From: Eucommia ulmoides
Taxonomy: Eukaryota > Streptophyta > Magnoliopsida > Garryales > Eucommiaceae
Direction: 5' to 3'
Assembly: GCA_016647705.1 (NCBI GenBank)
Contig: JAENRU010000487.1
Span: 310,001 to 374,000 of the forward strand
Length of the DNA stretch: 64,000 bases
Shown here: positions 4,658 to 60,130 of the stretch, piece by piece
How positions within the stretch are numbered: position 1 is the stretch's first letter
Layout of the letters: each line of letters begins with the position of its first letter
The notes under the pieces: generated by a model
Database searches by the model: none
Told to the model about the DNA's origin: nothing
What the model saw: only the letters and a program-made list of their open reading frames with translations
Program-made: the position numbers and the translations under genes

Positions 4658-5025
4658 ACTGGAGAAAGTTGGGGTTCCCAACTAGGCTTGTAATTCTTCC
4701 ATAATTAAGTTTAAAAAAATTATTTTTCAAAAAATTATTATTTAAAATATAATTATTATGTAAACAACTCTTCTTTATTTATGACTTTATTCCTGCAAAA
4801 ATAATAAATTATATTATTACTAATTTAAAAATGATAAAATGACTAACAAATTTGTAAATTTAAGGTGGAAATTGGTATAAAATTTAGAGCGATAAAAAAC
4901 ACATGAATTTTCCGTAACCACTTCATTATTAAGTCTCGTAGCGTAACCATATATCTAAAATATTAGTTATGCAGTTAATATCCCAAAACCAAAATCAAAA
5001 TTATTTTAATTTTCAATTTCGAAAT

Positions 5026-5820: not shown

Positions 5821-8084
5821 AATGTCGTCAAATCAATTAATTAATTCCATCGAAGCAGGCTCATCGTAAAATCCTGCAATGGAACAGACGGCGACTGCCT
5901 CAATTCCTTCACATTCTAACCCTGATATAGATCTAAAAGCAAGTAAGTTTTCAATAGAATGGCTCTCAGCGTTTAGGGAACAATATAGAATCCATAATAT
6001 CTATGTCAATTAGGGTTCCATCTAAAGATGAACGTCCTTAGGATTCCAAGGAGAATGAGGTATGCCTTTACCTCCGGATGTTTGAGTATGGACTTACCCT
6101 TCATTTTTCCTCGTTTCTCCATAATCTTTTTTGCCAAATGGAAATTTCTCCAGCTCAGCTAACTCCAAATAGTTTTCACCAAATTATGGGAGCCATAACA
6201 CTTGCTAGGCGAAATAACATTACTCTTTCTGTTGATGCAATTAGAAGCATAAGCTAACTCAAATACCTTACCAAAATCGATAGGTATTACCTTTCTATCC
6301 CTAAAGAATTTTCATTTCTTATAGAGCTTCCAGCGAAAGTCAGAGACTAGCAGCCATGGTACCTCTTCTTTTCTGGAGATTAGGAATTCTCTTATGAGAA
6401 AATGGGACAGTCCTCAATGGTTCCAAAACGCTTTAACTCCCCAAGTAATGATACACCCAACAGTCTATTTCTTATTTGAAATTCTACCGAAGTGATTTTG
6501 ATCATATTTATTGATACAGGTGATAGTGCTTCTCGGAAAATCAGTCTTACTCCAAGACTTAAAGAAGAGTTGAATAAGCTTCTAATCCCCACAGACCACC
6601 TTTATAGAGAATTAACATATCGGCCATTCATCCGACCTCCAATGGATCCGTCTCGTCTTCAAGAATTAGCTGAACTTCAAATCACGACTCGAAAAAGAAA
6701 AAGACCGACAAAAAGACTCGCTAAAAAGAACGATCAACCGATACCCCGACTTCCTAACAATGCTGCTAGCAACCTAGCCATCCAACAAGTCATCTCTCTT
6801 AATGACCCTGAAACAGCAGTATCGGATGATGATTGCCAACCTTTCATCCTTCGCCGAAGAGGCGTTGTGCCAGTCGTAGTTCCATCATTGGTTCGCACTA
6901 CTGAACAAGCTCAAAGCAAACCATCTTCTTTTTCCAGATCAGCTTCGCTATCAAGATCAGCTAATGTCCTTACCACAGAGCCTACTGTTGCCGATCTTCC
7001 AGTTACTGATCCTCCAGTAACTAGTTGTCATTCCTCCCCAGTCCCTACTTCCAATCAAAGAACTGGTCAAGGAATGACTAAACAACAAATGTGCCAGCTC
7101 ATTGATGAAGTTGGCCCTTCTGTTCTAGGTCGTCACGCAATTTTCGATAATTCCATAAAGTTCTTTTATGATCAATCCTGAGACAAAGGCAAGAAAAGAA
7201 TTAAAGGTAAGAACAAACCCGAAATCTTCCAAATGGTGATCTGTGCCCTTTTCCAGGTACTTGCATCATTTTAGTCTATCCTTACTGAATAATCTGACTA
7301 CTTATCCTCATCTAATAATCATCTTACCATGTTAGTGTATGCATATGTCATCCGCTCTGGTCAATTGTGCTGAGGATGAGAACGAGCTAGATGCCCAACT
7401 GATGCATCAAATGATTGAGCTCAATAAGGTTGAAGCCAAGGTATAGGATCTGGAGAATGAAAAATTAAGGCTTGCTACTGATCGTGCCTTGTCTAGATCC
7501 TCTCAAGAATAGTTCAAGGCCGAATTACAGTTTGCCAACGAGCAAAGGGAAGCTCTCCAAAAGAGTAATGCACTTTTCTGTTCTGAGAATAGCAAGCTTA
7601 GAACATCGATCACTGCAATCAGAGAAGAATGCACGTCTCTAAGAGAAGAATCCTGAAATCCTTCTAAGGAACTGGCCTCAGCACGTCTAATAATTGACCA
7701 GAAGGATGTTGAGATAAAGGAAAAAGATGCTGCCTTTTAGAGAGATCATGATCAACTCTAAGAGAAAGAGGCTGCTCTTCAAAGGCTTCATTCCGAAAAG
7801 AAAAAATGTTTGTTGAGTTGTCTGCTACAAAAGAAAAAGCTAAAAAAGAAATTGACGACCTCTAGTCTTCCTTCAAGAAAGAATCAAAGAGGCTTCAAAA
7901 AGTGGGCTTTGCTTTCTGTCAAAGACTGGTGTCGGAGGAGCTTCCTGAAGCCGATCTCTCCTTCCTAGATCTTGATGACGAAACAGAAAAAGTAACTGAA
8001 GAATATAAAGATTTACCCAGTTCAGCAGACGAAGTTCCAGCAGAGAGCTCAACACGGAATGTTGCTACTGATCACGCTAACTGA
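5821..8084 (+). mobile_element. Antisense reading region 1 of the Tat element
   Basis: Lies on the strand opposite to gag-pol, starting about 140 bp inside the 3' LTR. It is broken, but its longest open stretch (6492-7181, 229 codons) has normal-looking codons and a proline/serine-rich, basic middle (RKRKRPTKR-like). The part before it (about 6010-6360) resembles the 'putative gypsy type transposon' domain (Pfam Transposase_28) found in antisense ORFs of Tat elements. The part after it (about 7380-8084) is rich in E, K, L and Q and looks like a coiled coil. The function in the family is unknown. It may instead be a captured host gene fragment. The family link is inferred from position and composition. 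Confidence 0.6.
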
Positions 8085-9309: not shown

Positions 9310-10250
9310 GCCAATACTTCTTGATAGAATACTGAGAATAACTCAGTTATTTGCTGGGCTGAGGTGCCCGGTAGAATGCTGAGCTGATGTGCTTAGTTAA
9401 ATTCTAAGTTAGAGAACTCAGTTACCTACTTGGCTGAGACGCCCTGTTGAATGCTGAGCTGATGTGCTCAGTTAAAGTTTAAGTTGGAGAACTCAATTAT
9501 TTGCTAGGCTGAGGGGCCCAGTTGAATGTTGAGCTGATGTGCTCAGTTAAATTATGAGTTGGAGAACTCAGTTATTTGCTGGCTGAGGGGCCCAGTCGAA
9601 TGCTGAGCTGATGTGCTCAGTTAAATTTTGAGTTGGAGAACTCAGTGACTTGCTAGGCTGAGATGCCCAGTTGAATGCTAAGTTAATGTGCTCAGTTAAA
9701 TTTTGAGTTGGAGAACTCAGTTGTTTGCTGGGCTGAGATGCCCAGTTGAATGCTAAGCTAATGTGCTCAGTTAAATTCTAAGTTGTAAAAACTCAGTTAT
9801 TTGCTTGGCTGAGGTGCCCAGTTGAATGTTGAACTGATGTGCTCAATTAAACTCTGAGTTGGAGAACTCAGTTATTTGTTGGGCTAAGGTGCCCAGTTGA
9901 ATGCTGAGCTGATGTGCTCAGTTAAATTCAGAGTTGAAAAACTCAGTTATTTGCTGGGCTGAGGTGCTCAGTTGAATGTTGAGCTGATGTGCTCAGTTAA
10001 ACTTTGAGTTGGAGAACTCAGTTATTTGCTGGGCTGAGGTGCCCAGTTGAATGCTGAGCTGATGTGCTTTGCTAAATTCTGAGTTGGAAAACTCAGTCAT
10101 TTGCTAGGCTGAGGTGCCCAGTTGAATGCTGAGCTGGTGTGCTCAGTTAAATTCTGAGTTGGAGAACTCAGTTATTTGCTAGGTTGAGGTGCCCAGTTGA
10201 ATGCTGAGCTGATGTGCTCAGTTAAACTCTGAGTTGGAGAACTCAGTTAA
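9310..10250. repeat. 75-bp tandem array inside the Tat element
   Basis: About 12.5 copies of a 75-bp unit containing 'gctgagctgatgtgctcagt' and 'gagttggagaactcag'. The copies are mostly 85-95% alike. The unit is dense in CTGAG/CTCAG pairs, which gives several short internal palindromes. It lies between integrase and the antisense regions, as described for the Retand family of Silene. Confidence 0.9.
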
Positions 10251-10358
10251 AAAGAAACACAAATCTCATAAAATTAAACATTTATTAATTTCTTTAAAAA
10301 AAAAATGCCTTCAGGAGACAACTTATTTATAAAGAAACAGAGATTTAAGATAAAGAAC

Positions 10359-11285
10359 TCATACAAAATACTTCCGCAAATGGGAGATGTTCCAAGGTCT
10401 AGAAACGACAACTCCATCAAGTTCTTCAATCCAATAAGTTCTTGGTCTATTACCTTTAATGACGCGATAAGGGCCCTCCCACTTTAGAGCAAGCTTCCCC
10501 AGGCGAGCTTCTGGTCGGTGAGGCATTACCCGTCGAAATACCAAGTCTCCAATGGTGAAACTCCTTGGGCGAACTACATGATTGAATCTGCGTGCCATTT
10601 TAGTCTTGTAAGCTGTCATACGCATTAATGCCTCCTCACGCTTTTCTTCAAGTTGATCCAATTTCTCTCGTATGCAGCCTTCATTCTTCTTTAAATCAGC
10701 AGCAGCAACTCTTCTGGTTGGCAACCCAATCTCAACTAGAATGACAGCTTCAGTTCCATAAGTTAAAGAAAATGGTGTTTCTCCAGTTGTAGACGTCGGG
10801 GTGGTGCAATAGGCCTATAAAACTCTAGGAATTTCTTCTACCCATTTGCCTTTAGCATTATCTAGCCAACTTTCCCACCAGTAAATGGAGTTCCATTGTC
10901 GGATATTAGAACAGCAGGTATGCCAAAACGACAAATGACTTGTTTCCACAAAAAATTCTTTACTTCATTTTCACTCACTGTTACAAAAGCCTCTACTTCA
11001 ACCCATTTGGTGAAATAGTCTATCACCACCAACAAGCATTTTTGGTTTCCTGGAGCTGGAGTAAAAGGACCTAAAACATCTTTTTCCCACTGAGCAAATA
11101 GCCAAGGACTAGTGATTGGAGTTTGTTGCTGAGCTGGGACCTTTATATCATTAGAGAATCGTTGGCACTTGTCGCATTTTCGTACATACTCTGCTGCATC
11201 AGTGTGCATGGTTGACCAACAATATCCCACTCTCAACCCTTTATGAACCAATGACCTTCCCCTTTGATAATTACGACACACACCT
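10359..11285 (-). mobile_element. Integrase region of the Tat element
   Basis: The minus-strand stretch 10862-11281 has the zinc-binding CxxC part (KCDKCQRF) and the catalytic-core signature with 'VVIDYFTKWVE' and 'SDNGTPFTGG'. 10359-10724 carries the C-terminal part, with 'LVFRRV' and 'LKWEGPYRV' ending at 'WNISHLRKYF'. The short gap between these two stretches reads as core sequence in broken frames. The region is recognisable and broken. Confidence 0.85.
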
Positions 11286-16399: not shown

Positions 16400-16692
16400 T
16401 CCAAGTTGACAAGCAGCTCCCATTAGTCAACGGACACCGAGGTTGGCTAAAATGCAAATCACACTTAATGAACATATTTAGTCGATCCACTACACTAGAG
16501 TCTTCATAGGCTAGCTCAATTCTTGCATTAAATTTCTGAAGAAAAAATTTGGTGATGAGCCTATAGAAATCACACTATCATTTTCTTCCAATCTCTTTAC
16601 ATGGGTCATTTCCATTTGAAAATCCGATCGCATCGCCGTTTACCCACTCCAATAAAAGCCTCCATCACCATGGCTGTGTTTTCTTCTAGCTG
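16400..16692 (+). promoter_or_regulatory. Upstream region shared by both receptor-kinase copies
   Basis: About 270 bp before the first ATG is clearly similar to 54925-55202. It shares 'cccattagtcaacggacacc', 'ggtgatgagcctatagaaat' and the leader up to 'tgatgagctcatc'. It is the promoter and 5' leader of the first kinase copy and shows the two copies arose by duplication of gene plus promoter. No clear TATA box was identified. Confidence 0.6.
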
Positions 16693-17094
16693 ATGAGCTC
16701 ATCGATGGCGTTCCTCTCTCTAGTTCTCGTCTTCCTAGCTTCTCTCTCCTTCTCCTCCTCCCCCTCTGTTGCGATTGACGTATTGGCTCAGAATCAAGCT
16801 CTCAGGGACAACGGCGAAACTATCGTCTCCGCCGGAGGGAAGTTCGTGTTGGGTTTCTTCAGCCCACCAAGCTCGAATGCTCGGTACGTCGGAATATGGT
16901 TTGGGAATGTCCGGCAGCAAACCATTTTCTGGGTTGCGAACAGGGACAACCCGGTATCGGATTCTTCCGGCGAACTCAATGTCACTTCCACCTGGGGCAT
17001 TGTTATCGGCAATAACCATGCCAGAGAAATCTGGTCTTCTAATTCCTCGTCGACCAGAGCAATCGATCCCATCACGCGGCTGTTGGATGGGAAT
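16693..17094 (+). pseudogene. S-domain receptor kinase copy 1, exon 1 fragment
   Basis: Starts at the same ATG as the intact copy at 55203 (MSSSMAFLSL). It encodes a hydrophobic signal peptide and most of the bulb-type lectin domain (FVLGFFSPPSSNARYVGIWF, then TIFWVANRDNPV). It is about 90% alike to copy 2 until about residue 130, then similarity stops at the insertion of a Tat-like LTR. The rest of exon 1 (S-locus glycoprotein region, EGF-like and PAN domains) and the transmembrane exon are missing from the window. Later exons of the same gene lie at 32438-32578, 49335-49344 and 50905-52795. The gene cannot make a receptor. Family: G-type lectin S-receptor-like serine/threonine kinase. Confidence 0.85.
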
Positions 17095-17754
17095 TGTTGG
17101 TGTTGAAAATTAGACCAATGAACTTTATGATCTCGTCATCTTTTGCGTGAAGAGCTGTGGAGAGCTGCGACTGATATGGAGTTGATCTACTTCCTTGCTG
17201 GAGTCTTCAATCCGAGCCGGACAGACGTTGTCTGGCCTGAGATCCTTGCTGGACAACCAAATCCTCCAGAGTTTGAGTCCAAGCCATTGTCCGGGCTGAT
17301 CTTCAGCCTGTCAACTACACATAGGACGGGCCGGGATGTTCTCGGTGTGTCCCCTCCGGCATGAGAATAAGAGCTTGGAGGAAAAGAAAATAGGTCGCTT
17401 GGAGAGATAAAGTTATTACCTCCACTTTTTTGGGTATTTACGCATATGAAAATGTGTTGGGGAAGCCTTCTATTTATAGGCGAGGAGGCGATTCGCATCT
17501 CGGAAAATTAGTCCCTTAACCTCGGTAATTCGCTAATTAGTCAGGCACGTAGGGAACACAGTGGATTAGAGCTATGGGCTCTTTGTATATTGATAGAGAA
17601 GCCATGGGCGCCAAGCCTATCAAGAGTGGCAGGTCGACCTAGACACCGAGGTTCAAGTCGAGCTGAACGCACCAACCTGACCTTCCTTGGCGATTATTTA
17701 AGAAGATTCTTGCTTGGCAACTGGTAAAGTCCTTTATTGCTACCGACTTGACAA
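17095..17754 (-). mobile_element. Tat-like LTR, first part (interrupted)
   Basis: Resembles the Tat LTRs at 5026 and 57361. It shares the segment 'cctccggcatgagaataag' at about 17355 and has a minus-strand TATA box, TATAAATA, at 17471-17478. It continues after a 12.5-kb insertion at 30257-30384. The start is placed near the point where similarity to the receptor-kinase exon ends, and is uncertain by about 10 bp. No other LTR or internal region of this element is beside it, so it behaves as a solo LTR or a remnant. Confidence 0.65.
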
Positions 17755-34720: not shown

Positions 34721-34989
34721 GTATGTAAGACCCGGATTTTTTTAAGTCGTATCTTAAATGTTTCAAAAATAATGGGGTAGGTGACTTAATTTATTATTTG
34801 ATTTAAACGTTTTGGGGAAATTTGTAAATTTAAACAACATTCAATCCAAAATTGGCATTTAATTTTTGAATTAAAATTTTGTTGGGGTGGAATTGCAATT
34901 TAAGAAAATATTAAATGTAAAATTGAATCAAAAAAATGAGATTTTAAGAAAATTGGGGGAGGAAATGATATTTTGATTAAAAGAATTTT

Positions 34990-34994
<5 letters not shown>

Positions 34995-35075
<81 letters not shown>
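34995..35075. repeat. (AT)n microsatellite in the solo LTR
   Basis: About 80 bp of uninterrupted AT repeats. Apparent open frames here code only for Ile-Tyr repeats and are spurious. A poly(A) run of about 43 nt follows at 35396-35438. Confidence 0.9.
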
Positions 35076-35076
<1 letters not shown>

Positions 35077-35395
35077 TTATTGTATACGCCGCCGGAGACA
35101 GGGGGATCGGCAGTGGGCGACGTGGCGTGAGATGATCAAACCCAGCCATGCATATATATATGTGTAATTATTGAGGGGAGGACCTCAAAAGGAGAAATCA
35201 GGAAACCGAGAGGGAGAGGAGAAGGTTCGGGCGGTGGGTTCGGATCGACGTCATTGCTCCGCCATGAGTGTGTGTGTGTGTTGTCGCCGTCGATCAACCG
35301 GAGATCAACAGCGTGTGTGAGGGTGGTTCGTTGTGCGTAGGTGATTAGCTAAGGGGGTGTGTGTGTGTGTGTGTATGCCGGTGGATCCCAACCGG

Positions 35396-35446
<51 letters not shown>

Positions 35447-36642
35447 AGAGAGAGAAACATTCGTCGGCAAGGGGGTGTCGTCCAGCGTGGGTAGTGGCCC
35501 TGATCAAATTATGGGTACGTGATCGCCGTCGTTCGGTGAGTAGATGCATGCCGTTCGCCGTCGTGGTTGCTGTGGGGGGGGTGATTGAAGTGGGGTGATC
35601 GAAAAGTTAGAGAGAGAAGGTGGGTTCGGGTTGGTGAAGATACATTCCGGCATGGGTGTGTGTCACCATGCTAGATGAAGCAGAGCAGAAAACGGAAATG
35701 GTGGTGGCTACAGTGTGTGGGTGTGTGTTGATCGGCGGCGGATGAAGGTCACCGGCGACTGGCAGCTGGAACCAGACAAAACCGGGAAAAAAAAAAAACA
35801 AACAAAGAAGAAAGAAGAAAAAAGAAGGAAGAAAAGAGAAAAAGGAAAAAAAAATAAAAAATAAAAAATTTGCAGAAAACACCCCAGGAAAATCCAAAAC
35901 TCATTTCGTGATCGTCAAAAGGTTCGGAACAGGTGAAATTTCAATCGATTATTAATTTTCATTAAATTAAATTTTATTTAGTATTACAAATCATAAAATC
36001 GTAATAATTTCGTAACGATTAATTAATTTTAATTATATGGTACATAAAATAGTAACGATTTGAAATATAGGACCTATATTGCATGATTAGGATGTTTTAG
36101 ATAAGATATTAATTTAGGCTCTGTCACTATTAGGTTCGCAAGCATTGACGTCCAGATAGAGTATGGTCAGTGTCGGTTCTGCAAAACAGATATCGAGGTG
36201 AGTGTACTATCTTCTTACCAACCTATTTTTCTATATATATATATGAGATGACATTTGTAATTACCTAAACTGTATGAATTTATAAACGATATGGATTAAG
36301 TAGGATTTGAATGAATTGATAAACTGGACTTCGATAGATTTCAAAAAGAAGTTGGAAATGAATTTCCGCTGGATTTGGTGAAAATAGACGGTGTTTTTAA
36401 AAAGAGAAAAAGAAACATCTATTTTTCTAAAAACGTCTGGTTTTCTAAAAATAAGGGATGAAAAAGTGGTTTTGATAGAATCGGACGTTTTCTTTAAAAA
36501 GGAAATGCGAAATATGATTTTTGGATTTAAAAGTTGGTTTTGAGGAAAAGAGATAGACGTGGTGATATGACGATGTTGAGTAAACAATATTTATGGAGTT
36601 ATGATTCGATGATGCTATATTTGATTTTGACGATGCCATGAT

Positions 36643-36724
36643 TGTTCTCCCCGAAAGGGGTGTGGATTATATTTCTCCCCGTAAGGGGTGTGGATTATAT
36701 TTCTCCTCAAAAAGGGGTGTGGAT
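36643..36724 (+). repeat. Array of three GNRA-loop hairpins in the solo LTR
   Basis: Three units of about 29 bp ('ttctccccgaaaggggtgtg' type). The first two fold as CCCC-GAAA-GGGG and CCCC-GTAA-GGGG; the third is degenerate (CTCC-TCAAAAA-GGGG). The flanks ('gcgatgccatg' side and 'cgtaggaaggcat' side) match the flanks of the UUCG-type arrays at 41789 and 48442. Confidence 0.75.
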
Positions 36725-37543
36725 ATTTCGTAGGAAGGCATTCCTATGAATGTTACGGTACCGTTACAACTCCCGATCGTGAGGTTAAAACAATCACTAA
36801 GGCTGGCCAGCGTGTGTGTGTTTGAGAGTGGTGTTTTGAGATGTGGTATTTTGCTTATACTGGGTGATTCATTATTTATTATGGTGATTGGCATGACTCT
36901 TATACTACATGACTTTGCATAGAAAATATATATATTGTGCTTTATTCTCACTGTTAATATTAGGAAAACTTTTATGAGTTACGTGATGTTTATATATTTA
37001 AGTTTGATCCATTTAGATGTTGCAGAATAAATTATTATTATTATAAAAATATTTTACTAAGAATGCAGTACACTCGCAGGTGGAATAGCTAGCAGTCAGT
37101 CGGTCCACTGTTGGCGCTAAATAGAGTTATGTGGGTCATGCGAAGGAGTCTTTTGAGATGAGATATCAGAGATAAAATCTAAGAGAGGTTCAGGGAATTT
37201 GTTTGATTGTTTTATATTCAGGACGGTGTATCCCTACCAAATGAAATTACTATATGTGTTGTATAGATTTACTATATGGTTTTGGTGACGTATTAAGGTT
37301 GGCTAGTCAAGTGGGTGGTGTCATGTCTACGTCACGCCGGCCTCACAGGATGGGTGTTCGGGGTGGAGTGTGACATAGTACCTGAAAAATAGGGGACAAT
37401 TTTGAGAAACGTAACATCAAGAGAATGATACATATGACGAGTGATCAGATCATAGCACCTATATCCTTTAGACATTGTGGAATAGTCGAGAAAGATATAC
37501 CGAATAGATTTATCATCAACTTAGTTCTAGTGAGACTCGGATT

Positions 37544-39841: not shown

Positions 39842-39929
39842 TAAAGAATATAGGAATAAAGGAGAAATATGTTGAAGACATAATATATTTCCTTGTCATT
39901 TCATATTGAACAATTACGTATATATATAT
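39842..39929 (-). repeat. 5' LTR of the Copia element, first part
   Basis: Matches 32579-32665 and is cut by the chromovirus-type insertion at 39930. The rest is at 49198-49329. Confidence 0.8.
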
Positions 39930-40209
39930 TGTAAGACCTCAATTGTAGCATGTGCGTCATTTTAGTGGTATTTTAGAGTAATTGTGAAAATTCGAGGTGA
40001 AACTAGGACAATTAAAAATTCAAATAAAAAGTCTAGGGGTCAAATTGAAAAATATGGAAACAGTAAATCCCAATTTAGAAAGGTAAATTGACATTTAACT
40101 TAAAATTAAAACTTTTAGGGGTGCAATCGCAATTTAAGAAAAAATCTTAAAAGTGGACCTAAACTAAAATGAAGATTTTAAGAAGTTAAGGGGAGAAAAG
40201 GGTAATTTC

Positions 40210-40313
<104 letters not shown>

Positions 40314-41788
40314 ATCGGGAACCACAGGCCGGAGCAGTGCATGAACAGTGACGTGGCAGGAGGAGGTTACTGCTTAATCCACTAGCTACATGCATATAAA
40401 TACTGACCTATGCATGTAATGATCACGAAGAAATAATTCTCGAAACAGGAACCGCAAACCAGAGAAGGAAAAGAGAGAAAGCAAAGAGAGAGAGAGTGGT
40501 CTGCCGGCGGTGGGGTGCAGTCCGGCGTGGGTAGTGGCGGTTCGTTCGGTCTGTTTTGTGTGTGTTTGTGTGCGTTGAGTGTGCGTGGGTGTTCAATTGT
40601 GCGAATATGGGTTGTGTTACTGTTCACCGACGGTTGGGGGGGGATGCTCTGCTCGGTTACAGTTTTCGGTATGGGTCATTGGCGGGGATGGTGGTCAGGT
40701 GGTGTGGCGCTACCGTGGGCATGTGGGCTGTGTGGGCTGTGTGGGTTGCTGCTCGTCGTCCGGTGCCGGCGCATGTATGGGTTTGTGTTGCCGGAAGTTT
40801 CGGAGCAGGCGTGTGGCTGGTTTTCTCATCCAAAGTGGGTGTTGTTGGGTGTACCTGTGTGTACGGGTATTATTCGGCCGGTGGTGTTGCCATGCAGCGA
40901 AGTGTGTGTGTGTGTATAAGACCGTCGGAGTTGGAGAGAGAAGAAGGGAGATGTCGGCCGGGAATGCAAACCGGAAAACAGAAACGAAAAAAAAAAAACA
41001 AAAGGGGGAAATTGCAGAAACCACCTCAAGAAAATCCAAAACCCATCTCATGGGCGCCAAACGTTTTGGAAATAGGTGAAACTTCAATCGATTATTAATT
41101 CTCGTTAAATTAAATTTTAGTTAGTGTTACAAATCCTAAAATCATAATAATTTCGTGATGATTAATTAATTTTAATTAGTAACAATTCGGAATATAGGAT
41201 CCGCATTGCATGATTAGGATGTTTTAGATAAGATATTAATTTAGAATCTGCCACTATTAGGTTCGCAGGCACTGGCGTCCAGATAAAGTGCGGTTAGTGT
41301 CAGTTTCGTAAAACGGATATCGAGGTAAGTGTACTATCTTCTTGCCAAACTGTTTTGCTATGTATATATATGATGAAATAGATGGTTATTTAAATCGTAT
41401 GAATTTATAAATGATATAGATCAAGCAGGATTTGGGTGAGTTGGTAAACTGGATTTTCGAAAGATTTCGATGGTTTCGAAACGAAATTGAAAATGATTTT
41501 ACTTTGAATTTGGTGAAATCGGACGGTGTTTTTAAAAGAAAATAGAAAACCTCTGTTTTGCTAAAAATGTCTGGATTTCTAAAAATAAAAGGTGGAAAGG
41601 TAATTTTGATAAAAATCAGACGTTTAAAAAAAAAAAAAAAAAAAAGAATTGTGAAATATGATTTTTAAATTTAAAAGTTGATTTTGGGGAAAAGGGATAA
41701 ACGTGGTGATTTGACGATGTTGAATAGACGATATTTATTGGGTTGTGATTTGATGATGTTGTATTTGATTTAACGATGTCATAGTATT

Positions 41789-41928
41789 CATCTGTTTTGG
41801 TAGAGTGATATTATCCGTTTCAGCGGAGTGATGTTATCCACTACGGCGGAGTGATGTTTATCTGCTTCGGCAGAGTGATGTTAGACGTTTATACTGCGCA
41901 GTGATTATCTGCTTCGGCGGAGTGATGG
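41789..41928 (+). repeat. UNCG-loop hairpin array in the 5' LTR
   Basis: Six units of about 24 bp ending 'gagtgatgtta'. Units include CTGC-TTCG-GCAG and CTGC-TTCG-GCGG, a TACG-loop unit (CACTACGGCGG), and weaker ones. Unit ends are joined by the conserved spacer 'agtgatgttat'. Confidence 0.75.
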
Positions 41929-42539
41929 GTGTTCGTAGGAAGGCATATCCTATGGATGGTACAATACCGTTGCAAACTCCCGATCGTAAGGTTAAAACGA
42001 TCACTAGGACTGGCCAGTGTGTGTGTGTTGGAGGTGTGTGTTTGAGATTGGTGCTTGAAATGTGGTGTTTTACGTATATTGGTTGATTTGATATTATTTA
42101 TTATGATAATTGGTAGGATTTTATATTAGATGGAATTTATCTATATCGCTTTATTGTCATTGCTTATATACTTGTACTTGATCCATACTAGATTGTGGAA
42201 ATATTTAGAAAGTATTAATATTTTAGAAATATTTTACTAAGAAGGCAGTACACTCGCAGGTACAACAGCTAGGAGTCGGTCTCCTACTGGCACTAGGTAG
42301 AGCTATGTGATGGAGTCATGTGGACGATTGAGAGAAGCTGTCAAAGGCGAACCTAAGAAGGTTCATGGATAAATACTTTTAGTTAGTAAAACTTCGGGTC
42401 GGGTGCGCCCCCATAATGGATGTATGTATTATACAGTGGGTGTATATTTTCATTTCTATCAGGTTGTTTGGGTTTTGGTGATGTCATGCTGTAGTTATGC
42501 CAGCCCCGGGATGATGGGTGTCCGGGACGGGTTGTGACA

Positions 42540-45500
42540 ATTTTGGTGTCAGAGCCTAGGATATAGATTTTGTAGACTTGTCAGGAGATGTGTCAGTAAA
42601 AGGTTATGAGGTAGGAGGATGTGCCAGTCATCTATTCAGTAGGGGACATGAGATAGGGCGTTAATAGGTGAGCTTGGTATGAGGGTGTTAGGTTTTTATT
42701 TCATAAAGTTATGCATTAGCATGGTGCGTGAAGGGTCATCTTTTTGGCAGACAACGATATGACCACGTGGTGATATTACTAAGAGGGATGTCTTCCACGG
42801 GATAAGAAGACTAAGTTAGACAAACAACAAATTACGTTGTTATCAATATACTAGATGATATGGCAGAACACACGTAAGTTGAAATAAGAAATAATATTCA
42901 AAGGGAGTAAATCGCTTTCTAGACAATTTGAAAGGAAATTGTAATATTACTGGACAAGAATTTAATTTGGTAGCACTTTTTAGATTGATTAATAGACGAA
43001 ATAATAGTTGTGGCATGTAGCAAGGTAATAGGAAATGATATATAAGAAGTAGTCGAGGATTATGGATCTAAGAGGATAGTAGGTGCGTGTAGATATAATC
43101 CATTTGAATAAGTAATATAGAGTTGCGGGTGGAGTCAAATTTGGGATAAATAAAAATATGTAATGTTGGAAAGGCATATCTACTACCTCAGTTAGTCTGA
43201 TAGTGGGTTTAGGAGGTTAGCAAAGGGTTAAAGAAAGGATATCACAAATCAGTACGCATATGCTGTTCATACAAATTCTGGCAGTGGATATTGTAATAGC
43301 TAGGGATCTTCCCTATGTAGTTTCTAGAATGGACAGGGTGCTGGTAAGCGTGATTGGTAACCGTGATTACTATTAAATAAGTTCCATAATGATAAAGAGG
43401 GGAACGTTCGGCACATAAGTTGGTTAGGTATACTGGTGTTAATGAATGTGGAAAATTGAGATTTGAAATTATAGTTTTGGGACTTTAAAAGTGATTGTTA
43501 TGTGATAGGAAAAAATGAGTGGATTAATTTAACTCGATGATGGATTGCATTTAGTTGAATTTAAATAATTTTGGGTGAAAATAAAATAAAATAAAAATAA
43601 TAAAAAATAAAATAAATTAATCGTTGGATATTGGGGGATTGGAGTAAGTTTGTTTGCAGTTTAGGAAATTTTAATAGAAGAAGAAGTCGTCACAATAAAT
43701 TAGAATATCAACTAATGATTTAGGTAAACCTGGTGTGTGTTTCCATAAGGATTTGGTGTTTATGACGTAAAAACTAGAATGTGTTACTAAGGCGGTGACT
43801 AGTGCAGTAAATATGACTAGTACTCTTAAGGCATAGCATTCAAGTGAATCCAAAGGAAGCCGAAGTGATGGATTGACGGAATATGGAGAAGGCCAAGAAC
43901 ATGTGACCGGAATTCGAAACTTTTTGGAACTAGTAGAGATTGTATTCGTTCTAACGTTTAGTGACATCTCCTGTATGGCGGAATTTGTGCTTTAAGTCGG
44001 AAATTGGAAAAAAAAAAAAAAAAAAAAGCGGGGTTGCGCATATTTGGGTTATTCATACTAATGTCAAATAGAGATCTTTGTAAGTCTATTAGGTAATCGG
44101 TCAGGTGACCACTCAAATGGAGCTGGTAGATATGAAGTTGACATTTAGCGATTATAGGGTAGAAGGGCAGAAGTAGATGTCCAATTGGAAACGATAAGAG
44201 TAGAAGGGAATGATGATGGTCACAGTGCTGACTATAGCAAATATTTCGGGTCAAAAATTGGTGAGTTGATTGTTCATATTAACTTATGGGTTAAGTTAAG
44301 TCCCTTGTAAGTTTAGTGGGCGGCTGATCAGATGGTAATGCTGTTTGGTATTGATTTTTACCGTGGTGTAGACATGTAAAGGTCGGATGTCCAGCTAAGA
44401 AGGTTTAGCGAGACAGTGAAAATTGACTATCGAGCTGATCGGCGTGTCTGAAGGAACGATGAAGTTTGGAAATTTGAATTAAAATGCATAGGGTTGATAA
44501 TGTCAATTTATAGATGAGATCTTGAAGAAAAAAAAATGCATGGAATAAGATATGCAATACCCCAGTAATATTAACTATACTGTAATGGCATGGGCATGAT
44601 TAGTAGATTGAGAATGGAAATGGAAAATCACGGCATTTGTTATCCGGTGATTTGTTAGTCAAGTTAAGGTCAAGAAGTAACGAAATCTCTAGGTGGGCTA
44701 TTGTAGCCTTTACCTATACCAAAAAGAGAAGAGAGAGGAGTTCGAGGAGTGTTATCCTGATACGTACGTCCAATATATATATTGATAGGATTGTTCAATT
44801 GCGTGATGCACCAATTTAATGCAAATATTAAAAATTAAGTTGGCATAAGATATTTTTTAAAAATTAAAAGGGACAAGGATTAGTAATTCTAGGAATTTTA
44901 TTAACTGGTTATTCGAAATCTTGGAACTGAAATTCTGAAATCATAGATGTTATCGCCGCATGGTGATCTGAATAATAATTGTTATCAAAGTGAAATAAGT
45001 CGTCAGTATATGAACAACCCCTTGAGGGAAAACTGTAGTGTCAGGAGCTGATGGTTATTTGAACATGCGGGTTAAAATTTTCCATACTCCTTTAGTTGTC
45101 CAAGTGGAAGTTGATACCTTGTAAATACGATTCAGGTGTTAGAAGATATGTTGAGCGATTGTGTCGTGGCAGTTTCTGGTAAGGGAGATGATTGTGCAAT
45201 GTTAATAAAATCTGTTTATTCTAATAATTATCTTGTCATTAATCATGGTGGCATCGCATAAAGTGTTATATGAAAAGGATACAGGATTCCGATCTGATAA
45301 ACTGAACTGAGATAGGAAAACGAAACTTTTGCTGGATTTAGAATAGTCGATGTGACTACTTTCTTTTACTGGAAATTAGAAGTTATTGAGATGTTACAGG
45401 ACAAGGAGAATTTAAAATATCCTTGAGCTGATATGTAAACATGATATAATATTTTACAGTTAGTAGCTAATAATTATCAGAAGGTATCGATTTCGTTGTG

Positions 45501-46203
45501 ACTGGGGTGCACCTATGTACTTCGAGTCGTATACATACGTGGATATATGTTTGAAGCATGTTAGGCTAGTGGAAACAAACCTGAAACGCGTGACCATGTC
45601 AAGGACTTGGTAAAATGTGGGAGCATGAAAGGATTTCTTGTAGGTTGTTTGTTTGATATTTATTGGAGTTGTAGTTATGAGAGTTGGTTATATTTAGGTA
45701 TTAGGAAAGATATCGATATAAGTATTAAAGGGTTGCGATAGGTATCGAGGTTGATGATAGTTGAGTTATCTGTGCCTATGAGACTGGTAGCAATTATTAT
45801 TAGGTTAAATATGGAATGGAATGGAAAATATTGTTGCGACAGGCGACTAGGAAATGTCGGATGAAATGGATAAGTGTCGGTTACGACAGGTTGAAATAAA
45901 CTCACCGTACCAAAATATTTTATGCATATAGTGTTGTTACTGATTTTGATTTTATTAGAGTAGTGCAGTGGAAGCAGTTAGAAACATAAGATCCTTTGAC
46001 GGAGAGTTATCCGTGTTAAGAGTAACCGACCAAGTGCACTTTGTTTGTGGGATGGTTATGATTTAACGAAAAGTTGTTGGTTGTAAATTTTGGACGATTT
46101 GGGGTGATGAGACCATATATGGGAAACAATTGTTCTAAAAGCACATGAGACGAGTATAACTTTGTGATGCAACTTTGACATATTAGTATCCTGACGGAAA
46201 TTA
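42540..46203 (+). mobile_element. Internal region of the chromovirus-type element, degraded
   Basis: No open stretch of useful length on the plus strand. Faint pol-like phrases can be suspected (for example around 43840-43950), but I cannot support domain calls. A short A run is at 44009-44027. The sequence is best described as degraded or non-coding internal DNA. Confidence 0.5.
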
Positions 46204-46600
46204 ATGACGTTTAGGAAGAAAGGGAAGTTAAGTCCAAGGTACATCGGACCATATGAAATTTTAGATGGGATGGGCACGACAGCGTATGGACTTGCGTTAT
46301 CGCCAGAATTATTTCGACTACATGATGATCTCTATGAATCGATGCTCTGGAAATACATGTCAGACCCTTCTCATGTGTTGATTTCGCAGCCGATCGAGTT
46401 GGAAACAGATTTGACCTACGGGGAAGAGTCAGTTCAAATCATAAGCTATAAAGGTCAGGTGTGCGAATGAAAATGATTATGTTAGTCAAGGTGTTATGGC
46501 GCAATTATGCAGTGGAAGATACGACATAATAGCGAGAAGACGAGATGAGGAATAGATACCCACATTCATTCGACTAAGGTAATAAAATTTCGGGACGAAA
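46204..46600 (+). mobile_element. Chromovirus integrase C-terminal piece
   Basis: The open stretch 46204-46470 reads 'RKKGKLSPRYIGPYEIL', later 'DPSHVLISQPIELETDLTYG' and 'EESVQI'. This is the hallmark end of Del/Tekay chromovirus integrases. Chromodomain-like residues follow in a poor frame. Confidence 0.85.
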
Positions 46601-46621
46601 TTTCTTTTAGGAGAGAAGAGT

Positions 46622-49192
46622 TGTAAGACCTCAATTGTAGCATGTGCGTCATTTCAGTGTTATTTTCGAGTAATTGTGAAAATTTGGGGTGGAACTAGGA
46701 CAATTAAAAATTCAAATAAAAAGTCTAGAGGTCAAATTGAAAAATATGGAAACAGTAAATCCCAATTTAGAAAGGTAAATTGACATTTAACTTAAAATTA
46801 AAACTTTTAGAGGTGCAATCGCAATTTAAGAAAAAATCTTAAAAGTGGACCTAAACTAAAATGAAGATTTTAAGAAGTTAAGGGGAGAAAAGGGTAATTT
46901 CACAAAAAATATATATGTGTGTGTGATCGGGAGCCACCGGCCGGAGAAGTGCATGAATAGTGACGTGGCAAGAGGAGGTTACCGCTTAATCCACTAGCTA
47001 CATGCATATAAATACTGACCTATGCATGTAATGATCACAAATAAACAATTCTCGAAACAGGAACCACAAACCGGAGAAGGAAAAGAGAGAAAGCGAAGAG
47101 AGAGAAAGAGGTCTGCCGGTGGTGGGGTGCAGTCCGACGTGGGTGGTAGCGGTTCGTTCGGTCTATTTTGTGTGTGTTCATGTGCGTTGAGTGTGCATGG
47201 GTGTTCAATTGTGCGAATATGGGTTGCGTTACTGTTCACCGACGGTTAGGGGGAGTGCTCTGCTCGGTTACAGTTTTTGGTATGGGTCATCGGCAGGGAT
47301 GGTAGTCGGGTGGTGTGGCGCTGCCGTGGACATGTGTTGTGTGTAGGCTGTGTGCGTTGCTGCTCGTCGTCCGGTGCCGGCGCATGTATGGGTTTGTGTT
47401 GCCGGCAGTTTCAGAGCAGGTGTGTGGCTGGTTTTCTCATCCGAAGTGGGTGTTGTCGGGTGTACCTGTGTGTACGAGTGTTGTTCGGCCGATGGTGTTG
47501 CCGTGCGGCGAAGTGTGTGTGTGTGTATAAGACCGTCGGAGTTGGGGAGAGAATGAGGGAGATGTCGGCCGGGAATGCAAACCGGAAAACAGAAACGAGG
47601 AAGAAAGAGAAAAGAAAGGAAAAAAAAAAAGAGAAAAAAGAGAAAATTGCAGAAACCACCTCAGGAAAATCCAAAACCCATCTCGTGGGCGCCAAACGTT
47701 TCGGAAACAGGTGAAACTTCAATCGATTATTAATTCTCGTTAAATTAAATTTTAGTTACTGTTACAAATCCTAAAATCATAATAATTTCGTGACGATTAA
47801 TTAATTTTAAGTACATGGTACATAAAATTAGTAACAATTCGGAATATAGGATCCGCATTGCATGATTAGGATGTTTTAGATAAGATATTAATTTAGAATC
47901 TGCCACTATTAAGTTCGCAAGCACTGGCGTCCAGATAAAGTGCGGTCAGTGTCAGTTTCGTAAAATGGATATCGAGGTGAGTGTACTGTCTTCTTGCCAA
48001 ACTGTTTTGCTATGTATATATATGATGAAATAGATGGTTATTTAAATCGTATGAATTTATAAATGATATGGATCAAGCAGGATTTGGGTGAGTTGGTAAA
48101 CTGGATTTTCGAAAGATTTCGATGGTTTCGAAACGAAATTGAAAATGATTTTATTTTGAATTTGGTGAAATCGGACGGTGTTTTTAAAAGAAAATAGAAA
48201 ACCTCTGTTTTGCTAAAAATGTCTGGATTTCTAAAAATAAAAGGTGGAAAGGTAATTTTGATAAAAATCAGACGTTTAAAAAAAAAAAAAAAAAAGAAGA
48301 ATTGTGAAATATGATTTTTAAATTTAAAAGTTGATTTTGGGGAAAAGGGATAGACGTGGTGATTTGACGATGTTGAATAGACGATATTTATTGGGTTGTG
48401 ATTTGATGATGTTGTATTTGATTTAACGATGTCATAGTATTCATCTGTTTTGGTAGAGTGATATTATCCGCTTCGGCGGAGTGATGTTATTCGCTACGGC
48501 GGAGTGATGTTTATCTACTTCGGCAGAGTGATGTTAGACGTTTATACTGCGCAGTGATTATCCGCTTCGGCAGAGTGATGGGTGTTCGTAGGAAGGCATA
48601 TCCTATGGATGGTACGATACCGTTGCAAACTCCCGATGGTGAGGTTAAAACGATCACTAGGACTGGCCAGTGTGTGTGTATTGGAGGTGTGTGTTTGAGA
48701 TTGGTGCTTGAAATGTAGTGTTTTACGTATATTGGTTGATTTGATATTATTTATTATGATGATTGGTAGGATTTTATACTAGATGGAACTTATCTATATC
48801 GCTTTATTGTCATTGCTTATATACTTGTACTTGATCTATAGTAGATTGTAGAAATATTTAGAAAGTATTACCATTTTAGAAATATTTTACTAAGAAGGCA
48901 GTACACTCGCAGGTACAACGGCTAGGAGTCGGTCCCCTACTAGCACTAGGTAGAGCTATGTGATGGAGTCATATGGACAATTGAGAGAAGCTGTCAAAGG
49001 CGAATCTAAGAAGGTTCATGGATAAATACTTTTAGTTAGTAAAACTTCGGGCCGAGTGCGCCCCTATAATAGATGTATGTATTAGACAGTGGGTGTATAT
49101 TGTCATTTCTATTAGGTTGTTTGGGTTTTGGTGATGTCATGTTGTAGTCACGCCAGCCCCGGGATGATAGGTGTCCGGGACGGGTTGTGACA
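46622..49192 (+). repeat. 3' LTR of the chromovirus-type element
   Basis: Partner of 39930-42539. TATA box TATAAATA at 47007-47014. Hairpin array at 48442-48580. It is followed by the duplication TATAT. Confidence 0.9.
48442..48580 (+). repeat. UNCG-loop hairpin array in the 3' LTR
   Basis: Same array as 41789-41928 with several substitutions. It includes CCGC-TTCG-GCGG and CGC-TACG-GCG units. Compared with the other LTR, several changes fall in the stems and loops of the units. Confidence 0.75.
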
Positions 49193-49197
49193 TATAT

Positions 49198-49329
49198 ACA
49201 TAATCTATGGAACAATAAATAGAAATAGTTGATAAGATAGTAGTTGAGAACATTAATGAAGAGTGGTTGGTACATTAATGAAAGGTGGTTGATGAGTTGT
49301 GTATTGATGATCGAAATTATATTTCAATA
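49198..49329 (-). repeat. 5' LTR of the Copia element, second part
   Basis: Completes the LTR started at 39842-39929. It ends TTTCAATA before the duplication GGTCT, then the kinase-gene exon resumes. Confidence 0.8.
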
Positions 49330-53841: not shown

Positions 53842-54316
53842 TGTCACACCCCACCCCGGACACCCGTCACCGTGGGGCCGACGTGACGTCAACATGACAT
53901 CACCTGACCGTCAAACCAACTCATAAAAAGACAATATACATAAAACAATATAAAATTATCTATACAACATATACAAAATTTAGTGCTATAGGGACACACT
54001 CGTCCCAAAAATAAGAACAATAAAATAAATCTCATGAACCTCTCTTAGGTTCACCTCCGACAGCTCGTCTCAAAATACTCTCATATTACTCCATTGCATG
54101 ACATGCATAACTCTAACTAGTACTAGTAGGGGACCGACTTTTTAAATTTGCTCCACTTGTGAGTGTACTATCTTCTTAGTAAAAATATTTTATAATAATA
54201 ATTTATATCCACAACATATAAATGGATCAAGCGTAAGTATATAAACAACATGTAGCTAGTAAAATTCTCTAAAATGCAACTATTAATGACGTATATGCTA
54301 CGATTGGGATCTTACA
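53842..54316 (-). mobile_element. Short solo LTR, chromovirus type
   Basis: Starts TGTCACACCCCACCCC and ends 'gggatcttaca'. On the minus strand this is the same start (TGTAAGATCCC) and end (GTGACA) as the 2.6-kb LTRs at 34724 and 39930. Only 475 bp remain. A perfect duplication CTTTA flanks it (53837-53841 and 54317-54321). It shares the 'gtgtactatcttctt' and 'cctctcttaggttc' segments. It lacks most of the middle, including the microsatellite and the hairpin array. Confidence 0.85.
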
Positions 54317-54924: not shown

Positions 54925-55202
54925 TGATAAGTAGCTCCCATTAGTCAACGGACACCGAGGTTGGTTAACATATGCAAGTCACGCTTAATGCCCAAATTTA
55001 GTCGGTCCCGTACGCAAGAGGCTCTTCAATAACGTGCTCAATTCTTGCATTAGATTTTTAGAGGGAAAAAAAATGGTGATGAGCCTATAGAAATCACACT
55101 ATCATTTTCATCCAATTTCTTTAAATTTGAAAGTCCAATCGCGTCGCCGTTTCCCATCTCCAATAAATGCCGCCATCGCCATGACTGTGTTTCTTGTAGC
55201 TG
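54925..55202 (+). promoter_or_regulatory. Promoter and leader of receptor-kinase copy 2
   Basis: Matches 16400-16692 before copy 1, including 'cccattagtcaacggacacc' and 'atggtgatgagcctatagaa'. It ends directly at the shared start codon. Function is inferred from position and shared sequence. Confidence 0.55.
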
Positions 55203-56478
55203 ATGAGCTCATCAATGGCGTTCCTCTCTCTAGTTCTCGTCTTCCTAGCTTCTCTCTACTTCTCCTGCTCCCCCTCCGTTGCGATCGACGTATTCGCTCA
55301 GAATCAAGCTCTCAGGGACAACGGCGAAACCATCGTCTCAGCAAACGAGAAGTTCGTGTTGGGTTTCTTCAGCCCGCCGAACTCGAATGCTCGGTACGTC
55401 GGAATATGGTTTGGGAATGTCCCGCTGCAAACGGTTTTCTGGGTTGCGAACAGGGAGAACCCGGTACCGGATTCTTCCGGCATACTCGCCGTCACTTCCA
55501 CCGGGAGCATTGTTATCGGCAGTAACCAGACCAGAGAAATCTGGTCATCTAATTCCTCGTCGACCAGAGCAATCGATCCAATCATGCGGCTGTTAGGTAA
55601 TGGAAACCTCGTTCTGATGAACAGAGGCGATGAAATTAGCTCAGGTAACTATCTATGGCAGAGCTTCGATTCTCCAGGTGATACTCTGATTCCGGGGATG
55701 AAGCTTGGGTGGGACTTCCGTACGAATCAGGAGTGGTACTTGAGGTCTTGGAGGAGCTCACAGGACCCAGGCTCCGGCGATTACACTTACAGATTTGACC
55801 GGAGTGGCCTCCCGCAGGTAGTTCTCCGGGAAGGATCTCAGATCAAGTACAGAGGCGGTCCGTGGAACGGCGTCAGTTTCGGAGTCGACCTTCCACCTCG
55901 TAAAAACAAGTTGTTTAACCCGATTTTCGTCATGGATTCGGACAATATGTACTACAGATTTGAGAACGTCGACGATACGACGGTGTTGAGATTCGTCGTG
56001 AACCAGACGGGGCCGATTCAGTACCTATGGTGGAGTGAAAGGACCGGGGAGTGGATCATTTTTGGAACCCTACAGCGCGATACATGCGATGTATATGGAA
56101 CTTGTGGGTCTAATGGCGTCTGCACCAATGTCAATCCGTTGTCCTGCTCTTGCCCAGATGGGTTCGTGCCGAGATCGCCGGAGGAATGGGCGAGGTTTGA
56201 TAGGTCCGACGGATGTGTTCTCCGGACGCCGTTGAATTGCAGCACCGCCACCGATAGGTTCCGGAGAGTTTCCAGCCTGAAATTGCCGGACGCGTCGCAT
56301 TGGTTGGGGAACGGCAGCGAATCCTGCGAGCAGACTTGCCTGAGGAACTGCTCGTGCGTGGCCTATACTGCAAACGCCATGATCGGCTGTGTGCTGTGGT
56401 TCGGAGATATGGTCGACATGAGAGAGTCCAACGGACGTGGATCGGAGATGTTCGTTCGAATGGCGGCTTCTGAATTCG
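55203..56478 (+). CDS. G-type lectin S-receptor-like kinase copy 2, exon 1
   Basis: An open exon of 425 codons plus one base, encoding the extracellular part of a plasma-membrane receptor kinase. Signal peptide about 1-27 (hydrophobic, ending SVA). Bulb-type lectin domain about 28-150 (FVLGFFSPPNSNARYVGIWF; VFWVANRENPVP). S-locus glycoprotein region about 205-290 (GGPWNGVSF). Cysteine-rich EGF-like segment 295-317 (CDVYGTCGSNGVC). PAN-like domain about 345-420 with spaced cysteines (ESCEQTCLRNCSC). Many N-glycosylation sites (NSS, NCS, NGS). The start at 55203 is shared with copy 1. The donor GGTAAGC at 56479 is followed by the transmembrane exon with matching phase. Family members sense ligands in defence, symbiosis or pollen recognition; the ligand here is unknown. 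No break is seen in this exon. Confidence 0.92.
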
Positions 56479-56568
56479 GTAAGCCAACATCAAAAAATTC
56501 CATTTATTAAACGTTGATTTCAATGATTTCGTTCATTAATTTGGTCTGTTTTCTGATACAAATTGAAG

Positions 56569-59769: not shown

Positions 59770-60130
59770 AATAGCTCAGTGTCCTTGCTAGGTCAATCTG
59801 AGCAGCTCGACATAAGCTTTGAGATTTGGTGATTTGTCATTAAGCGTTTACTGAGTGGACTGATCAGAACAGCTTGGCTGGTGCGTTGAATTGATCTCAG
59901 CGGTTCGATCAATTTGGTGAACTAATGAGCTGATCTTCGAAGATCATTTTGATTGGTGAACTGATTTAGGTAGTTGGTCAATGAGTTGATCTAGGCAACT
60001 CAGTTGGTTGATAAGTTGATCTTGTCAGCTCAGATTATGAATGAATTGATCTAGGTAGTTCAGTTTGATTAATAAGCTAATCTTGGCGTCTCCGTTTATG
60101 AATGAACTAATGAACTTATCTTAGCAGCTT
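59770..60130. repeat. Diverged tandem repeats, about 50 bp
   Basis: Repeats of 'agctgatcttggcagctcagtttgattgatga' type, with much variation. They lie in the same place as the 75-bp array of the first Tat element and share the CAGCTCAG/GCTGA flavour, but have a different period. Confidence 0.55.

Follow-up and report, generated by a model that had tools for sequence, protein, structure and literature searches.

A hypervariable hairpin minisatellite in LTRs of Eucommia ulmoides, possibly formed during reverse transcription

Two unrelated short tandem arrays occupy one slot in related LTRs of Eucommia ulmoides, one built from hairpins with GNRA loops and the other from hairpins with UNCG loops. 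The hairpin pattern is real and goes beyond plain chance in two independent cases. There is about an even chance that such an array is a hypervariable LTR minisatellite that arose during reverse transcription at stable hairpins; here we infer both the generation of the repeats by reverse transcription and the driving role of hairpin stability in it. The array is predicted to belong to the leader that is transcribed from a Ty3-type LTR, where it may well be enclosed in an intron. All positions refer to the window, i.e., the whole stretch of 64,000 nucleotides that was analysed, and the features are collected in Table 1.

Table 1. Positions of the LTRs, arrays, hairpin units and candidate transcript signals in the window.
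Feature	Position	Strand	Remarks
Solo LTR hosting the GNRA-type array	34724..37375	+	5-bp TSD TAGTA on both sides, TG...CA ends
Candidate TATA box region, solo LTR	35147..35165	+	matched by eye with those of LTRs A and B
Candidate LTR leader intron enclosing the array, solo LTR	36198..37079	+	donor GAG/GTGAGTG, branch-like TACTAAG, acceptor CGCAG/G; sequence signals only
Counterparts of the candidate leader intron	41325-42259 (A), 47977-48912 (B)	+	likewise
GNRA-type minisatellite	36645..36724	+	28-bp unit, 2.8 copies; TRF, 90% matches
Hairpin unit 1, CCCC-GAAA-GGGG	36649..36660	+	sequence
Hairpin unit 2, CCCC-GTAA-GGGG	36677..36688	+	sequence
Third unit, degenerate, without GNRA loop	36705..36718 (around)	+	sequence, folding
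5′ LTR (A) of the related element	39930..42539	+	2610 bp; TSD TATAT; followed by PBS-like TGGTGTCAGAGC
UNCG-type array, LTR A	41783..41931	+	~23-bp units, six units, one too degenerate to score
Integrase C-terminal SH3-like remnant	46195..46470	+	PF24626 (SH3_Tf2-1), E 2.4e-13; internal region otherwise decayed
3′ LTR (B) of element 39930-49192	46622..49192	+	2571 bp; TSD TATAT
UNCG-type array, LTR B	48436..48584	+	length as in A, 7 transitions relative to A

The host of the GNRA-type array had been taken for a solo LTR in a sequence-only reading of this DNA, and the TAGTA TSDs that bound it bear this out. The two CCCC-GNRA-GGGG units described there are present as well, although their spacing, judged from their starts, is 28 bp and not about 29 bp. 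The third, weaker unit also exists; its loop is lost, and its pairing is limited to CUCCU/AGGGG, including one U-G pair. GNRA loops (GAAA or GTAA) are found in two of the three solo units. The arrays in LTRs A and B do carry the UNCG loops ascribed to them, as TTCG or TACG is present in seven of the 10 scored units, the remaining loops being TTCA, TTTG and TTTG. One degenerate unit per LTR (41887-41900 and 48540-48553) was excluded from this count. The stem on a loop of one of these classes is repeated in both types of array.

Between the solo LTR and LTR A, BLAST similarity stops at 36639/41782 and resumes at 36727/41932, i.e., at the array edges. Identity in the longer flanks is 78-80% upstream and 70% downstream, and the nearest 100-column flank blocks are 86% and 84% identical. 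The flanks are thus common to the solo LTR and the LTRs with UNCG arrays, as had been noticed from the letters, and so is the place, the slot being present in all three LTRs. The sequence is not shared: homology of the 28-bp and 23-bp units was undetectable, their score being equalled in 229 of 1000 shuffles and in 353 of 1000 hairpin-preserving shuffles. What is found is a subfamily-specific tandem array in a conserved slot, for two subfamilies only. LTRs A and B terminate one and the same element, so that the number of independent arrays is two, not three. A fourth LTR of the family, at 53842-54316 on the minus strand, is an internally deleted solo LTR of 475 bp with TSD TAAAG; it was rejected as a third array source, since its array region is deleted.

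Tekay/Del-type chromoviruses are characterized by long LTRs, TG...CA ends, a 5-bp TSD and a tRNA-Met-like PBS. The LTRs described here measure 2.57-2.65 kb, have TG...CA ends and 5-bp TSDs (TAGTA and TATAT), and LTR A is followed by the PBS-like TGGTGTCAGAGC, which we take to be tRNA-Met-like. The host LTR family is Ty3-type and probably Tekay-like, and the element at 39930-49192 is likely a chromovirus. A Pfam match was obtained for one of the eight internal ORF pieces scanned (out of 23 listed), i.e., the integrase remnant of Table 1. Frame-broken pieces resembling a chromodomain tail were noticed by eye. No relative was confirmed when the integrase piece was used for a protein search of viral contigs. 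The stretch at 32579-32792 matches both flanks of the element (39842-39925 and 49193-49327) and is an apparent empty-site relative, pointing to a local duplication of flanking sequence. Elsewhere in the window, two stretches of a lectin-type receptor gene (16690-17106 and 55200-56510) are related, with 91% identity over 300 bases. Their open frames encode 138 aa and 436 aa, respectively; the domains of the 436-aa ORF (B_lectin, S-locus glycoprotein, PAN) suggest plant DNA.

The two LTRs of the element show what happens to an array after insertion. Both UNCG arrays are 149 bp long and differ by seven substitutions and no indel; all seven are C/T or G/A differences, and four of them are at a CpG of one copy. 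Divergence between A and B is 4.7% in the array and 4.7% over the whole LTR, with 3.4% in the conserved LTR part. The UNCG arrays have undergone no length change in the chromosome, nor do they look protected. Four units differ between A and B, compensation is found in none of them, and three of the eight unit copies concerned carry a mismatch. These differences are post-insertion and inform on decay, not on earlier selection.

Whether the array enters RNA was judged from candidate promoter signals. LTRs A and B contain CATGCATATAAATA near 40393 and 47005, the solo LTR contains CATGCATATATATA near 35150, and a purine-rich stretch follows each of them. The starts implied by these boxes, near 35184 (solo), 40425 (A) and 47037 (B), would place the array 1456, 1358 and 1399 nt downstream, respectively, i.e., at about 1.4 kb. 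More TATA-like runs are present; in the solo LTR, two of them (36927 and 36991) follow the array. With a TATA-like box about 1.4 kb upstream, the presence of the array in RNA, as proposed before, is probable. Transcripts of LTR elements extend into the 3′ LTR copy as far as the poly(A) site; because of this, a transcript start downstream of the array would not wholly remove the array from RNA.

The array is enclosed by a candidate leader intron in each full-length LTR. The donor motif AGGTRAGT occurs three times on the plus strand of the window, once per full-length LTR (36196, 41323 and 47975), and once on the minus strand. The branch/acceptor motif TACTAA[CG]-N5-30-CAGG likewise occurs three times on the plus strand, once per full-length LTR, and is not found on the minus strand. 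Shuffling LTR A 1000 times produced the donor motif in 150 cases and the branch/acceptor motif in four; by itself, the donor motif is a weak signal. Among the 30-column windows of the alignment of the three LTRs, the acceptor window ranked second best (29/30), and the donor window (27/30) was equalled by six others among those listed. The stretches from donor to acceptor measure 882, 935 and 936 bp and have a GC content of 32-34%, compared to 42-47% on either side and 36% in the window. Their T content is 36%, and 59 of the 631 windows of 900 bases examined were at least as rich in T. The distance from donor to array is 442, 458 and 459 nt in the three LTRs, and that from array to acceptor 353, 328 and 328 nt. 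No polypyrimidine tract is evident at the candidate leader intron; in the deleted fourth LTR, TACTAAG is kept and the acceptor reads CACAAG. Altogether, the array may be part of a leader intron in the LTR and begin some 1.4 kb from the transcript start. As it would then lie between splice sites, the translational role once suggested for it, i.e., in translating the spliced mRNA, is weakened, and a role in unspliced RNA only becomes possible.

The rarity of the hairpins bears on whether they could be a coincidence. On the plus strand of the 64 kb, 18 strong hairpins with a four-base loop were counted; four of these have GNRA or UNCG loops, and all four are inside the arrays. The minus strand has 18 as well, one of which is of the GNRA/UNCG type and lies outside the arrays. 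Shuffled units of unchanged composition yielded a strong GNRA/UNCG hairpin in only 0.058% of 60,000 trials for the 28-bp unit and in 0.103% of 60,000 for the 23-bp unit, figures that overstate the surprise as the hairpin definition was set after viewing the sequence. It is very unlikely in view of these counts that two ordinary minisatellites hold short GC palindromes whose loops carry well-known names by chance, even though a loop-blind test allowing any loop of 3-8 bases gave p=0.122 for the solo unit hairpin and the GNRA and UNCG classes together make up 12 of the 256 loops. An Rfam gathering search of the window gave no matches. The exact array patterns had no match in viral or genome contig collections, which do not include plant genomes as such. 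Among the listed titles and abstract openings, with few subscription papers, no published description of a hairpin, tetraloop or palindrome array in a plant LTR was found.

Selection on RNA structure, the main suggestion of the sequence-only reading, was addressed with covariation and folding tests. For the UNCG-type units (10 units, nine distinct; low power), the covariation score was 0.328 against 0.275 in shuffles and was reached by 73 of 500. Standard pairs fill 93.3% of the cells against 91.1% after shuffling, a value reached by 134 of 500 (the same units), and a double-sided change is present at one of five pairs, which was reached by 347 of 500 shuffles with nine distinct rows only. Compensatory evolution among units was not supported in this small sample, in which covariation does not stand out from shuffles. 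In a control in which the partner was slid, pairing of the UNCG-type units fell to 28-53%, which indicates that the stem is real and nothing more.

When the full-length arrays were folded, the z-scores of the MFE were -1.53 (solo), -2.05 (A) and -2.41 (B), with 14, 5 and 4 of 200 shuffles being as good; the antisense strand of the solo array gave a z-score of 0.04, with 99 of 200 shuffles as good. The row of small hairpins that had been imagined does not survive as the lowest-energy fold: one of the two GNRA hairpins is retained in the solo array, three of the five scored units in A and none of five in B, the remainder pairing across units. When pairs are restricted to within 20 nt, the folds lose about 8 (solo), 23 (A) and 26 kcal/mol (B). 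Under this limit, z-scores for the three arrays in the same order are -1.42, -1.08 and -0.39 in sense (22, 49 and 104 of 300 shuffles as good) and -1.81, -2.92 and -2.38 in antisense (13, 1 and 9 of 300). With pairs within 30 nt, they are -1.05, -1.84 and -1.60 in sense and -1.05, -1.90 and -1.91 in antisense; with no distance limit, -1.29, -1.79 and -2.17 in sense and 0.09, -2.40 and -1.51 in antisense. A fold excess specific for the sense strand was rejected, since the short-range excess of the antisense strand is equal or greater. In a scan along the LTRs with pairs within 20 nt, the solo array is overlapped by the three lowest-energy of 103 windows; among the 101 windows of A and the 99 of B, some outside the array equal it or have an even lower energy. 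The loops were additionally ranked on their own stem among all 256 loops (Turner 2004). GAAA or GTAA is beaten by 20 loops, TTCG by 58 and TACG by two, and the antisense counterparts are beaten by 143 to 190. The sense loop is more stable than the antisense loop in all five units compared, so that the modelled ranking favours a property of the sense RNA. The strand-unspecific fold excess and the ranking of the sense loops point in opposite directions.

Known systems offer several parallels. In retroviral packaging signals, tetraloop hairpins stand next to one another beyond the splice donor. Tnt1, with its tandemly repeated BII boxes, is of the Ty1/copia type, and BARE belongs to the copia superfamily in barley. 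Like the retroviral signals, the array consists of neighbouring small hairpins after a donor, here a predicted one, and would be present only in unspliced RNA. Unlike in those signals, its hairpins are tandem copies of one unit. Ogre/Tat elements have hypervariable tandem repeats, for which a strand-transfer hypothesis exists (PMC7004042), and Retand elements have tandem arrays (PMC11963269). These share with the arrays described here that short tandem repeats occupy a fixed slot of a Ty3 element and vary in sequence between families (PMC7004042; PMC11963269). However, their slot is between pol and the 3′ LTR, whereas all three arrays here are inside LTRs, and the present arrays are short (2.8 to about six units) and made of GC hairpins with GNRA or UNCG loops. 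Tnt1/Retrolyc elements similarly combine a subfamily-specific LTR part with otherwise conserved LTR sequence (PMC1838419; PMC3316501). In Tnt1, though, it is U3 that varies, which precedes the transcription start, and the array probably follows the start. A division into spliced and unspliced transcripts that differ in fate, predicted here, is also reported for BARE, where splicing leads to a Gag-only subgenomic RNA and not to the LTR leader splice proposed here (PMC3735527).

In the favoured reading, an origin in reverse transcription, a stable hairpin in the sense RNA would cause reverse transcriptase to stall, after which the nascent cDNA could slip or jump to a neighbouring unit or a co-packaged template, thereby adding a tandem copy. 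The slot would thus be rewritten between subfamilies and its flanks retained. As the most stable sense hairpins would stall best, the surviving units would lean to GNRA and UNCG loops with no function needed. Such an origin would account for the fixed slot, the full turnover, the bias to stable sense loops, the absent covariation signal and the equal length after insertion. Two unrelated arrays in one slot, A and B arrays of equal length and covariation no higher than in shuffles count in its favour, as do the palindromic minisatellites with other loops elsewhere in the window, and the superiority of the sense loops in every unit compared fits what is predicted for a process with an RNA template. 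Against it, both independent arrays fall in two classic classes of stable tetraloops, with most variants true to class. Retention of the class is not demanded by mere slippage, unless stability itself drives slippage. Moreover, the published parallels are located between pol and the 3′ LTR and not within the LTR.

Surveys of the window for minisatellites gave 17 array rows after filtering. A hairpin p<0.05 was obtained in six of these, including 9340-10251 and 59972-60055; the six come from four loci, LTRs of a single element accounting for two. The minisatellite at 9340-10251, with 25/75-bp units, has stems of 5 to 7 bp and sense loops such as CTCC among the eight commonest of 43 listed, and the 30-bp minisatellite at 59972-60106 contains a single perfect stem of 7 bp, which closes a loop of 7 bases. 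GNRA and UNCG loops are absent among the loops listed for them, i.e., the eight commonest of 43 and two of two, respectively. The former minisatellite adjoins an integrase-like end at 10359-10814 (SH3_Tf2-1 below its cut-off), which belongs to an element on the minus strand whose direct repeats are at 5023 and 15573, and the repeats of the minisatellite resemble the published Retand-type repeats between pol and the 3′ LTR. Antisense to this element is a 233-aa ORF (6480-7181), in the position where Retand antisense ORFs have been reported; it has no Pfam match at E 0.01.

It is rather doubtful that the array is instead a selected RNA element, i.e., a row of hairpins kept in unspliced genomic RNA as a signal for packaging, nuclear export or splicing control. 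The place between a donor-like and an acceptor-like site would make it absent from spliced mRNA, and the similar distances to both sites in the three LTRs count for such a signal, as do the separate RNA pools for translation and packaging, one of them spliced, reported for BARE (PMC3735527). Different sequences with GNRA or UNCG loops in one slot, loop variants that mostly stay in class and the low local energy at the solo array speak for selection too. These points are offset by covariation no higher than in shuffles (in a small sample), by the few unit hairpins retained in the MFE, by short-range folding that is not unusual on the sense strand and is more unusual on the antisense strand, by other windows in LTRs A and B that fold locally as well or better, and by the fact that only two independent arrays are available. 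The earlier interpretation is upheld in part: the common place, the unshared sequence, the sense loops of the GNRA and UNCG classes and a probable presence in RNA are supported, whereas for selection on structure neither covariation above shuffles (at low power) nor compensation between A and B was found. The few copies in the window are compatible with a selected RNA signal as well as with a by-product of copying. As a more specific and decidedly improbable version, the slot in the leader intron might require a row of ultra-stable tetraloop hairpins of any sequence. This row, spliced from the translated mRNA, would single out the unspliced genomic RNA to be packaged or exported, and by swapping UNCG and GNRA arrays, subfamilies would stay independent of each other or of host silencing.

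Alternatively, the inverted repeats could be transcription-factor sites in DNA and the array an enhancer, like the BII boxes of Tnt1. This is an improbable explanation, although inverted repeats are strand-symmetric, defence-induced factors bind the BII boxes (PMC3316501) and Tnt1 subfamilies differ chiefly in U3 (PMC1838419). Given the TATA-like runs that follow the array in the solo LTR, the array might sit in U3, but the TATA-like box common to the three LTRs argues that it is probably outside U3. In addition, a four-base spacer that mostly stays true to a tetraloop class is unexpected for a DNA site.

If the structure is selected, a plant Ty3 LTR would contain an RNA signal that does not depend on sequence, in a part of the leader that is spliced out, and this signal would provide a handle on how packaged and translated RNA are separated in plant retrotransposons. 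If it is not, the arrays suggest that stable hairpins can seed minisatellites in LTRs and that stable-loop arrays alone are no evidence of function.
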